Assembly (NCBI GenBank): GCA_030698575.1
Contig: JAUYMQ010000590.1
Span: 1 to 8,487 of the forward strand
Direction: 5' to 3'
DNA: 8,487 nucleotides
From: Deltaproteobacteria bacterium
GTDB lineage: Bacteria > JAUYMQ01
Shown: one piece after another, positions 4,991 to 8,487 of the stretch
How the letters are laid out: each line of letters opens with the position of its first letter
Numbering within the stretch: the first letter of the stretch is position 1
The notes under the pieces: model-generated
The model's database searches: none
Told to the model about the DNA's origin: nothing
Seen by the model: only the letters and a program-made list of their open reading frames with translations
Position numbers and translations under genes: made by a program

Positions 4991-6793
4991 ATGGACGCTG
5001 CCGTCGACGTTAACAAATTGGCCGCTGAGTTTATTCAAGCAAATCTTGACAATGCTGTTGAGTTCGCGTCTTCCAAGATTAAAGGCGCGCGAAACGTCTT
5101 CAAATCGAAGCTGGAACGAACATACAAGGGGTATCTCGCACGAATTCTTGGTCGGTATTCGCGAGCAAAATCATTCTTCATACGCACTGAACCCGTGCCG
5201 CTTTACGACGTCTTCGTCCCGCTTGGTCTGGCCAATCAGGTGCGTAAATTACCGAAGGCCTCCGTAATCGATGTTACAAGTGTTGCTCCATGCGCAATCG
5301 TTACTGGCTCGGGCGGGTCCGGGAAAACGATGCTCATGCGTCATTTGCTGGTGGGAACGATAAGTGCCCGTGCGAAGACACCGATTTTTTTTGAGTTGCG
5401 AGATCTAAACCAGCATGATCAAAGTCTTCGAGATTCACTGCTTGATAATGTGAAAGTTAATGGGCTGGAAGTTGACGAGGACTATTTCGAGCTCGCGCTC
5501 AGGGCCGGGCATTTCTGCATAATGCTCGATGGATTTGATGAGCTTGAAAGAGGCAAGAGAAAACGGATCGCACAGGAAATTCAGGGACTAGCACAAAAGT
5601 ATGTCGGTAACTGGTTCATCATGTCATCAAGACCAGATTCGCAACTGGAGGGGTGGACCGCCTTTACTCAGTTGGCGGTGCAGCCTTTAGACCTCGAATC
5701 GGCGACGGAACTGGTTACCAAACTCCCGTGTGATCCTGATGTGAAGGAGAAGTTTCTAGACGATTTAAGAGACGGTCTGTTTGCACGTCATAATTCTTTC
5801 TTATCAAACCCGCTGTTGCTCTCTATCATGCTCCTTACCTATACGGATGTCGCGCACATCCCGGACAAGCTGTCGATTTTTTATAATCAAGCGTACGAAT
5901 CTCTTTTCCATAAGCACGACGCACTGAAGGGAGGGTTTGTACGCGACAGGCAAAGTGGTTTGGACATACAGGATTTCGGTAAGGCATTCGCCGCATTCTG
6001 CCTACAGTCATTCGATAAAAGGGAGTTTGCGTTTTCGCGAATACGGGCGCTTGAGCTCCTGGAGCGCGGCAAAAAGATGGTTCAGCTCGACTACAAAACT
6101 GAAGCGGTTCTAGATGATGCTGAGCAAGCCGTTTGCCTTCTCATCGAGGAGGGTATCGAGCTCACTTTCTCTCACAGATCCTTCCAAGAGTACTTCGTTG
6201 CTCGGTTCATTTACGCGAGTCCTCCAGAGGTCAAGGGCCAACTCGTTAGGCACTTCAGTCCAACTGTTCAATCCGATTCTGTGATCGCGCTTCTCTACGA
6301 ACTGGACCCCTACAGTGTAGAGCGCTACTACATACTACCGATGTTGAGCTCATTGCGAAAAAAGCTGAAGGTAGGGAACGTCGTCACCCTGACTCATTTC
6401 CTGCGTTATGTGCAGCTGGTGTTTAGCGTACTCTCGGTTGGATTGAGAGCAGACGACGGGAGTGACCAATTGAGCGCCACTATAGCAGATTTGCCGACGT
6501 ACCTCGCAGCGAGGTTCGCCTACGAACGTTACGGGGAGGCGGTAAGTAAGCCCATTGGCGAAGTCGAAAAGGGATCACTTGACGTTATGAGAAATGCTTT
6601 GAAGAGACAGGTGGGGACCAATCGCGGATTCGCGACGAAGGATCTCACAATCGCGAATCCCATTCTGCGCGCCATGACCGGAGCCCCCGGGAACTGGGGC
6701 ATGCAGTACCTGCGAGGGCTTCTTGACATCGAACGACTGATCAGTAAGCGACACAGGGAGGCCAAGAGCTCTCTTGAGAACATCATCGGCTAA
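4991..6793 (+). CDS. NACHT-domain STAND NTPase, bacterial NLR-like (probable anti-phage defence)
   Basis: A 600-residue predicted soluble STAND ATPase. Residues 1-95 are helical and charged and include EPVPLYDVFVPLGL (67-80), a segment commonly found before the NTPase in bacterial NACHT proteins; no nuclease, TIR, protease or other effector fold is recognised. NACHT core: Walker A GSGGSGKT (106-113), extended Walker B FCIMLDGFDEL (175-185) with the small residue and paired acids typical of NACHT, sensor-like SSRPD (212-216), SNPLLLSIMLL (272-282), and winged-helix motif FSHRSFQEYFVARF (393-406). Residues 410-600 are mostly helical with no leucine-rich, TPR or WD repeats visible. Known family role: single-gene bacterial NACHT proteins sense phage components and block infection; applying that here is inference. 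It stands alone on its strand after a 200-bp gap. Its base composition is much lower in GC than the upstream genes (35% in 5401-5460), suggesting transfer. No clear Shine-Dalgarno precedes ATG 4991. Confidence 0.9.
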   Translation: MDAAVDVNKLAAEFIQANLDNAVEFASSKIKGARNVFKSKLERTYKGYLARILGRYSRAKSFFIRTEPVPLYDVFVPLGLANQVRKLPKASVIDVTSVAPCAIVTGSGGSGKTMLMRHLLVGTISARAKTPIFFELRDLNQHDQSLRDSLLDNVKVNGLEVDEDYFELALRAGHFCIMLDGFDELERGKRKRIAQEIQGLAQKYVGNWFIMSSRPDSQLEGWTAFTQLAVQPLDLESATELVTKLPCDPDVKEKFLDDLRDGLFARHNSFLSNPLLLSIMLLTYTDVAHIPDKLSIFYNQAYESLFHKHDALKGGFVRDRQSGLDIQDFGKAFAAFCLQSFDKREFAFSRIRALELLERGKKMVQLDYKTEAVLDDAEQAVCLLIEEGIELTFSHRSFQEYFVARFIYASPPEVKGQLVRHFSPTVQSDSVIALLYELDPYSVERYYILPMLSSLRKKLKVGNVVTLTHFLRYVQLVFSVLSVGLRADDGSDQLSATIADLPTYLAARFAYERYGEAVSKPIGEVEKGSLDVMRNALKRQVGTNRGFATKDLTIANPILRAMTGAPGNWGMQYLRGLLDIERLISKRHREAKSSLENIIG

Positions 6794-7308: not shown

Positions 7309-7704
7309 ATGCCCGTGCGACTCTACGCCCACCTCTCGTGGATCACGTGGGGACGGCTGCCGCTCATCGACCAAGCCGTCGCCGAGTTTCTGCTCCGGTT
7401 CCTGCTCGCCGAAGCCAAGCGCCACGGCGCCCGTGTCGTCGAAATCGGCGTCGTGCCGGACCACGTCCATCTCCTGCTGGAGTTGCCGCCCGCGTACGAC
7501 GTCCCGCGGCTGGTGCAGGGGCTCAAAGGCGCAAGCGCTCGCCTCGCGAATCGCGATGGGCATTCGCGCAATAAGTCGCTGCGCTGGGAATCGGGGTACG
7601 ACTGTCGATCGGTGGGGATCCGGCAACTTCCCGAGGTCACGAGTTACATCCGGCTGCAAGAGCTCAAACACGGGAGCCCACGCCCTTCAGGGCTCGCGTC
7701 GTAG
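7309..7704 (+). CDS. Y1/HUH transposase of REP-associated (RAYT/IS200-like) type
   Basis: Predicted single-strand DNA endonuclease of the Y1 transposase family, 131 residues. It has the HUH metal-binding motif in VVPDHVHLLLELP (His 52 and His 54) and the probable nucleophilic Tyr 113 in EVTSYIRLQ. LVQGLKGASARLANRDG, LRWESGYDCRSVG and the N-terminal HLSWITWGRLPLID also match this family. Start ATG 7309 gives a normal N-terminus, though no clear ribosome-binding site is seen. Family members usually continue after the Tyr helix with a His-His segment; here the last ~12 residues (GSPRPSGLAS region) are read from REP-like DNA, so the C-terminus may be eroded or replaced. REP-like repeats on both sides are the arrangement expected of a RAYT, a domesticated, REP-processing transposase, rather than a free insertion sequence. 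No terminal left/right ends of an IS are identified. Confidence 0.82.
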   Translation: MPVRLYAHLSWITWGRLPLIDQAVAEFLLRFLLAEAKRHGARVVEIGVVPDHVHLLLELPPAYDVPRLVQGLKGASARLANRDGHSRNKSLRWESGYDCRSVGIRQLPEVTSYIRLQELKHGSPRPSGLAS

Positions 7705-7914: not shown

Positions 7915-8066
7915 TTCCACCCAACCTTCGCGGTATTCTGACGCCCCCCGCGCGAATCGGCTTGTTACCAGAGCCACGTGCGCCTCAATCTTGACCCCAC
8001 CAGCGGCATCGCGCGTTGCGGAGCTGCGTCGCAGTACCGGTATCCGCCGGCATGTCGGAGCACGGT

Positions 8067-8150
8067 GCGGGTGTGGCGGAACTGGTAGACGCAGCACACC
8101 CACAATGTGCGGGGCGGGAGCCCGTGGGAGTTCGAGTCTCCCCTCCCGCA
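8067..8150 (+). tRNA. Class II tRNA with Leu-type body and aberrant anticodon loop (apparent CAC)
   Basis: An 84-base cloverleaf. Acceptor GCGGGTG (8067-8073) pairs with CTCCCGC (8143-8149) except for a T-T clash at pair 6-67. T8 is present; the D arm is GCG...CGC with A14, GG at 18-19 and A21. Anticodon stem GCACA/TGTGC (8094-8098, 8106-8110) is fully paired. The variable arm is 15 bases with a GGGC/GCCC stem. T stem GGGAG/CTCCC encloses TTCGAGT. The discriminator is A (8150), followed by CC but no genomic CCA. D arm, long variable arm and A73 are those of tRNA-Leu. The 7-base loop is CCCACAA, placing C rather than the near-invariant T at position 33 and giving anticodon CAC, which would read the valine codon GUG. 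Either this is a decayed tRNA or a specialised non-standard one. A terminator-like hairpin follows at 8237. Structure confidence is high; amino-acid identity is unresolved. Confidence 0.75.
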
Positions 8151-8163
8151 CCCTGGCGCTTGA

Positions 8164-8181
8164 CTCGGCGAGTCCGCCGAG
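8164..8181 (+). other. Hairpin just 3' of the tRNA
   Basis: CTCGGCG (8164-8170) and CGCCGAG (8175-8181) form a perfect 7-bp stem with loop AGTC, starting 13 bases after the discriminator base. It could be part of the precursor trailer. No T-tract follows, so it is not a terminator by itself. Confidence 0.5.
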
Positions 8182-8190
8182 CGCATACTA

Positions 8191-8215
8191 CTCTCACATT
8201 GTGGGTGTGCCGCGT
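8191..8215 (-). repeat. Inverted copy of the tRNA anticodon arm
   Basis: The 16 bases at 8195-8210 are the exact reverse complement of 8094-8109, the tRNA anticodon stem and loop. Extending outward, 8191-8215 is complementary to 8089-8113 with two mismatches and one G-T pair, so it also covers the 3' strand of the D stem and the first bases of the variable arm. No other tRNA arm is copied. Confidence 0.85.
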
Positions 8216-8236
8216 GGCCGATCATCGCCACGCTCG

Positions 8237-8270
8237 AAGGGGCCGCGAGTTTGCTCGCGGCCCCTTTGCG
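8237..8270 (+). terminator. Strong hairpin, probable intrinsic terminator of the tRNA unit
   Basis: GGGGCCGCGAG (8239-8249) and CTCGCGGCCCC (8254-8264) pair perfectly around loop TTTG, with two further A-T pairs at the base (8237-8238 with 8265-8266), making 13 bp in all. The tail is TTTGCGTT, a short and interrupted T-tract. Placement about 85 bases downstream of the tRNA on the same strand supports a terminator role. Confidence 0.65.
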
Positions 8271-8322: not shown

Positions 8323-8381
8323 ACTGCCCTCCCTACCTGACGTGGTCCGCTCTTTCCCACACGCCCTGGCCTAATTCCCAG

Positions 8382-8487
8382 TCGAAGTGCGCTCGCGGCG
8401 GAACGCAGTACGCTCGCGGTGGGTCGGGGGGCGCTCGCGGCAAGACGCAGTACTCGCGCGGACGAACGCAGTGCACTCGCGGCCGTA
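8382..8487 (+). repeat. Degenerate 21-bp-period repeat running off the window
   Basis: The core CTCGCG(G) recurs at 8392, 8413, 8434, 8453 and 8476 (spacings 21, 21, 19, 23; average 21). It is often preceded by GAACGCAGT or a similar sequence (8401-8409, 8464-8472). Units are diverged and no spacer/repeat regularity of a CRISPR array is seen. No coding frame is supported here. The array continues beyond the right edge. Confidence 0.65.

Follow-up and report, generated by a model that had tools for sequence, protein, structure and literature searches.

How should a tRNA gene be understood whose body is that of a leucine acceptor and whose anticodon belongs to valine? The question is raised by positions 8067-8150 (forward strand) of contig JAUYMQ010000590.1 (assembly GCA_030698575.1), an 8,487-nucleotide stretch of DNA filed under Deltaproteobacteria and referred to here as the window. 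The RNA encoded there, a class II tRNA recognized by Rfam RF00005, ARAGORN and comparison with about 70 relatives, is proposed below to be the toxin of a two-RNA module.

A Leucine tRNA Body with a Valine Anticodon

The Rfam tRNA model RF00005 matches positions 8067-8150 with 46.7 bits, with every arm formed and a class II variable arm. ARAGORN reads the anticodon CAC, placed at 8101-8103 (forward strand) by this program and by alignment with 57 relatives, and labels the gene 'tRNA-Val' because it names by anticodon. The loop CCCACAA at 8099-8105 comprises C33, the anticodon and A37, and is closed by the stem GCACA/TGTGC. A first-pass annotation of this locus had described a Leu-bodied class II tRNA with C33 and CAC, an A73, an intact T arm, a perfectly paired anticodon stem and an acceptor stem containing a single T-T mismatch; the tRNA model, ARAGORN and the sequence itself bear out each of these features. 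The mismatch is peculiar to the window copy, all seven acceptor pairs being formed in the other 53 of 54 homologues compared, in which A73 is likewise invariant. C33 is more widespread, occurring in 15 of 58 modules (U33 in the remaining 43), and would weaken decoding. The minimum-energy fold of the window tRNA alone is not the cloverleaf, and because of this and the acceptor mismatch this particular copy may be weak. The leucyl-tRNA synthetase (LeuRS) of E. coli ignores the anticodon. We agree with the earlier, conditional reading that, if charged by such an anticodon-blind enzyme, the window tRNA would place leucine at GUG codons.

An Apparent Antisense RNA Gene Follows the tRNA

Immediately downstream lies a second element, all of it on the forward strand. 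A sigma-70-type promoter (TTGACT, an 18-nt spacer, CATACT) occupies 8160-8189 and is the sole match of this type within the 588 bases scanned in the window; transcription is predicted to start near 8195. The core of the predicted transcript, at 8195-8236, begins about 44-45 nt past the end of the tRNA and complements tRNA nucleotides 43 down to 2, covering the anticodon arm, the D arm and the 5' strand of the acceptor stem, an assignment resting on complementarity and on covariation across 58 modules. Over these 42 nt the ungapped complementarity is 74%, and higher when G-U pairs and small bulges are allowed; 16 unbroken pairs join the antisense to the anticodon arm. A 13-bp terminator-like hairpin followed by a short T stretch ends the element at 8237-8266; a strict terminator scan of the window region did not call this hairpin. 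Folded as a joint transcript, tRNA and antisense reach a z-score of -8.8 against shuffles. No Rfam family matches the antisense part of the window. From the complementarity, the separate promoter and the hairpin, the locus reads as a tRNA gene followed by an apparently separate small antisense RNA gene. This gene (8160-8266) had been overlooked in the first-pass annotation, so that the two-RNA module went unrecognized there, while its account of the body and the anticodon, and its argument for more than decay, stand.

The same layout recurs among the relatives. An internal promoter matching at least 8 of 12 consensus positions is present in 45 of 59 modules, compared with 2% of shuffles, and its -10 box mostly ends 3-5 nt ahead of the antisense block, which places the expected 5' end of the antisense RNA approximately at the sequence complementary to the anticodon arm. 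A strong hairpin follows the antisense in 53 of 57 modules.

A Scattered Family in the Gemmatimonadota

A pattern scan combining a Leu D arm with a CACA loop was run on one genome per species for 84,980 species. It returned 14 loci, seven of them in the Gemmatimonadota, each a Leu-bodied CAC tRNA. All seven are followed by an antisense element altered in step with the anticodon arm; one of them, L092, has an interrupted T loop. The matches outside the phylum (L085, L087, L089, L090, L091, L093, and L094) proved isolated, broken or non-tRNA, and duplex folding of L085, L087, and L090 revealed no antisense. R1, a covariance model describing tRNA and antisense in their paired state, was run on 395 Gemmatimonadota genomes and found many further modules bearing other anticodons. 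A second model (R2) was built from 58 modules; verified modules mostly score 76-149 bits with it, and native tRNA-Leu genes up to about 75 bits. By a hand count from the table of matches at R2 scores of at least 74 bits, about 38 of the 395 sampled genomes carry a module, with about 70 modules in total and a maximum of seven in one genome of this sample. Some sit in large contigs (5.5 Mb in G300, 4.8 Mb in G267, and 1.8 Mb in G114), and the modules are therefore not assembly debris. Their distribution is patchy, their location varies, and single genomes hold several unlike modules; no shared neighboring genes were found among them.

In 386 further genomes the model search found modules only in the source assembly of the window (G000, two modules) and in G060 (one), whose module occupies the same place as one in G104 of the Gemmatimonadota set; no module was found outside the Gemmatimonadota clade in this search. 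The next-best matches in these genomes, down to about 58 bits, were native tRNA-Leu genes without antisense in all cases checked, as were the checked covariance-model matches below 70 bits in other phyla. Scans of IMG/VR likewise returned phage tRNA-Leu-like genes without antisense. Several of these (L116, L117, L118, L271, L282, and L285) have a long or odd insertion past the D arm; ARAGORN finds no tRNA in L116-L118, and the group possibly contains introns or represents another unusual class.

Coevolution of tRNA and Antisense

Across 58 modules the antisense tracks the anticodon arm base for base. When the tRNA-antisense structure is scored over these modules, 92.9% of cells are paired and two-sided changes occupy 436 cells compared with 121 ± 12 in shuffled data, in a second alignment that was fitted to a model of that structure and so favors it. 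Sliding the partner by one base lowers pairing to 38%. A first, smaller alignment was also arranged by pairing, with gaps padded with N and a few inserted bases omitted. Two tests are independent of alignment. In 59 of 59 modules the antisense pairs better with its own tRNA than with all 10 native tRNA-Leu tested, by a median margin of 17 kcal/mol, and for the window and its relatives the duplex energies, mostly between -45 and -77 kcal/mol, lie far below those of shuffles. No antisense was found beside native tRNA-Leu genes.

The tRNA bodies are equally constrained. The modules have the cloverleaf, the long variable arm and A73; the T and variable stems are paired in at least 99% of cells, and A37 is invariant. 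The first-pass annotation had argued that the window gene keeps more than random decay would leave, and about 70 relatives with conserved bodies and covarying antisense RNAs corroborate this. It had also considered that related loci might carry a normal Leu anticodon, with the window copy alone mutated; the opposite is seen, there being no Leu anticodon among 58 modules with conserved bodies. A decayed tRNA-Leu copy beside a chance inverted repeat would account for the T-T mismatch and the C33 of the window copy; given the numerous homologues with covarying antisense, this origin is very improbable for the window and is refuted for the family, in which constraint on body and loop is not relaxed.

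Four modules (L092, L181, L191, and L206) carry a structured insertion of 45-70 nt after T54 in the T loop and keep their antisense. The inserts of L206 and L191, in two genomes, are about 85% alike. A repeated mobile element was considered, and the insert is not repeated in the genomes tested; it may be an intron, an inactivating insertion or something else.

Anticodons and Their Target Codons

The anticodons of the 58 aligned modules are CGC (23) and CAC (13), then GAC and GCG (4 each), GGT and GGC (3 each), CTC and GTC (2 each), and TTC, CGG, GAT, and GCC (one each). Alanine (CGC) and valine (CAC) thus lead, with Asp, Glu, Arg, Thr, Pro, Ile, and Gly also represented, and about a dozen modules found later carry GCC, GCG, GGC, GTC, or CGC. 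Neither Leu nor stop anticodons occur (0 of 58 for each), and the module tRNAs are therefore not tRNA-Leu isoacceptors, though they may be charged like tRNA-Leu. All target codons fall within the top 22 by usage in Gemmatimonadota loci and together make up about 40% of codons, as counted in open frames of at least 250 codons from seven loci, which may contain some spurious frames. This usage was not reached by GC-matched random codon sets in 200,000 draws.

The Leader of the tRNA

Upstream of the tRNA, 57 modules share a conserved leader from about -120 to -28. In the window a stretch of it at 8009-8033 (forward strand) shows weak complementarity to the anticodon arm of the tRNA that it precedes (score 27 vs. 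18.4 for shuffles). Over 54 modules the pairing of leader and anticodon arm is stronger between cognate than between non-cognate partners (P < 1e-4 by permutation), and the preference holds within two subfamilies (P about 0.001); the consensus structure of the leader from RNAalifold is weak. The leader may be a self-inhibiting precursor element. No sigma-70 promoter for the tRNA was found within 90 nt upstream, and no excess of such promoters further up. The motifs GGTTAC and GATGA are enriched and clustered near -110, and are perhaps an unusual promoter of the tRNA.

Proposed Mechanism and Its Alternatives

The module consists of two neighboring RNA genes, and the predicted product of the second can pair with that of the first. 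With moderate confidence we read it as a missense tRNA toxin, charged with leucine and silenced by an antisense RNA antitoxin. The first RNA would be a functional tRNA of leucine identity with an anticodon for a frequent non-leucine codon. Once charged by LeuRS it would compete at its target codon, and leucine would enter there throughout the proteome, which would constitute the toxic activity. The second, a short RNA with a separate housekeeping-type promoter immediately downstream, would be the antidote: beginning with the complement of the anticodon loop, presumably the most accessible seed, and extending across the D arm as far as the acceptor strand, it would in vivo block the anticodon and keep the cloverleaf from forming. 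Duplex and cloverleaf should be mutually exclusive because the antisense spans the anticodon loop, the D arm and the acceptor strand. tRNAs are stable, and small antisense RNAs are usually short-lived. If the half-lives of the two module RNAs differ in this way, the tRNA would be released when the locus is lost or when transcription is shut off, as a phage might do. A toxin with its antidote best explains the non-Leu anticodons, the choice of the busiest codons and the dedicated antisense. On the larger proposal, that genomes hold batteries of Leu-charged tRNAs against their own busiest codons, each gagged by an antisense RNA, and that their purpose is all-RNA addiction or anti-phage suicide through proteome-wide mistranslation that halts or kills the cell, we lean only slightly toward acceptance. 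Leucine in place of valine or alanine is a mild exchange, so the most frequent anticodons may be only modestly toxic.

The mildness of the commonest substitutions, Ala or Val to Leu, would also suit an alternative in which the same RNAs serve regulated mistranslation: instead of being a toxin for addiction or defense, the tRNA would be set free deliberately in response to stress, making the proteome more diverse or growth slower. The seemingly different promoter types of the two RNAs fit such a role, and the conserved pairing of the leader with the anticodon arm suggests control. However, placing leucine at Asp, Glu, Arg, Gly, and Pro codons would be damaging, and the patchiness, the several unlike modules per genome and the variable location look more like those of toxin-antitoxin systems; we regard regulated mistranslation as unlikely, though worth serious attention. 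Less probable still, and in our view doubtful, is a tRNA-like RNA working outside translation as a decoy, sponge or regulatory RNA with the antisense as its partner. The C33 of 15 modules, the four modules that retain the antisense despite an interrupted T loop, and the lack of an encoded CCA are compatible with this idea, but the native Gemmatimonadota tRNA-Leu genes shown lack an encoded CCA as well. Full cloverleaf constraint, perfect acceptor stems and invariant A73 and A37 speak against a non-translational role, which moreover leaves the match of anticodons to the busiest codons unexplained.

Tyrosine recombinases often use tRNA anticodon arms, and the window contains a 16-bp perfect inverted repeat involving this arm; a recombination (att) site or an invertible segment of a mobile element was considered for this reason. 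Such an origin is scarcely credible: the complementarity reaches the D arm and the acceptor strand, it includes G-U pairs, which are relevant to RNA but not to DNA recombination, the repeat is flanked by a promoter and a hairpin, and no integrase occurs among the module neighbors tested.

Relation to Known Systems

By composition the module, with its proposed toxicity and neutralization, comes nearest to type VIII toxin-antitoxin systems, in which both partners are RNA. CreTA shares this property and also has translation as its target, striking at tRNA supply: its toxin CreT, a small RNA containing a mini-ORF, sequesters a rare tRNA and is repressed by CreA, which guides a CRISPR effector (PMC8501985, PMC12737573). 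In contrast, the proposed toxin of the module is itself a tRNA, and its partner is an ordinary antisense RNA that has a separate promoter. The CreTA antitoxin is a CRISPR-like guide whose handles derive from repeats, encoded next to a type I CRISPR-Cas locus. No cas gene is present among the window ORFs identified or the module neighbors tested, and the second RNA is a 42-nt antisense with a terminator-like hairpin rather than such a guide; membership in CreTA was rejected. Type I systems resemble the module in that an antisense RNA gene, with a promoter to itself, lies beside the toxin gene and yields an RNA that pairs with the toxin RNA, and the pairing of the leader within the toxin transcript recalls their inert precursors. 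Type I toxins, however, are peptides made from mRNA (e.g., PMC11264685), whereas the module involves no protein; since its target RNA is a tRNA and does not encode a peptide, it was not assigned to type I.

Allo-tRNAs, also found by genome scanning, share the class II body and the non-Leu, non-Ser anticodons but have an 8/4 or 9/3 acceptor branch (PMC7609411). The module tRNAs have a 7-bp acceptor and a 5-bp T stem (7/5), Leu identity and a paired antisense gene, and were not placed among allo-tRNAs; the review of that class (PMC7609411) mentions neither antisense RNAs nor Gemmatimonadota. Missense suppressor tRNAs are charged with one amino acid and read the codon of another, as is proposed for the module tRNAs. 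Those known to us are laboratory mutants or engineered, whereas the module tRNAs occur naturally, are conserved as a family and come with a silencer dedicated to them. No account of a tRNA toxin with an antisense antitoxin, or of this family, was found in open-access PMC; an earlier description in a subscription journal or a preprint is possible. The module seems to represent a so far unknown type of poison-and-antidote system, made entirely of RNA, that would act by scrambling the genetic code.

If this reading is correct, a tRNA can be a toxin and an antisense RNA directed at that tRNA its antidote, and cells keep genes whose purpose is the controlled violation of the genetic code. The weak point being exploited would then be that LeuRS ignores the anticodon, and the class II 'Val', 'Ala', or 'Glu' tRNAs that annotation programs report in these bacteria would be explained. 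The tolerance of proteomes for missense translation would become testable in nature, and the tRNA/antisense pair would offer a compact, RNA-only mistranslation switch.

Genomic Setting of the Window

The window encodes an SHMT that shares 88% identity with its counterpart in G060 and 65-79% with the enzymes of other Gemmatimonadota, but only 62% with a second SHMT of G000; furthermore, the native tRNA-Leu genes of G000 encode CCA, which the window copy lacks. From these identities and the CCA difference, the window contig (C176 of G000) probably comes from a member of the Gemmatimonadota and was placed by binning error in an unrelated metagenome-assembled genome, for which contamination stands at 4.6%. 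The first-pass annotation had asked whether the genome has the ordinary set of tRNA-Leu genes as well as a distinct tRNA-Val(CAC); both are present in G000, which is probably not the host of the contig. The second G000 module, with a Leu body and the Glu anticodon CTC (contig C376, 3752-3912), probably shares the Gemmatimonadota origin. G060 is collinear with the window up to the end of glyA, past which only short repeats match; the window module is thus located in a variable region. That module, like the NACHT and RAYT genes, is absent from the collinear G060 locus.

Just upstream of the window module, at 4991-6793, lies the gene for a stand-alone NACHT protein with a SNaCT13 C-terminal domain, a gene type known from anti-phage defense. 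A Y1 transposase gene (IS200-like, RAYT-type) follows at 7309-7704, surrounded between 6900 and 8330 by the REP-like palindromic repeat GCCGAGCCGGCGCTTCAGCGCACGG in many copies, and a degenerate 21-nt tandem repeat, GAACGCAGTACGCTCGCGGCG, occupies 8381-8485 at the end of the contig.
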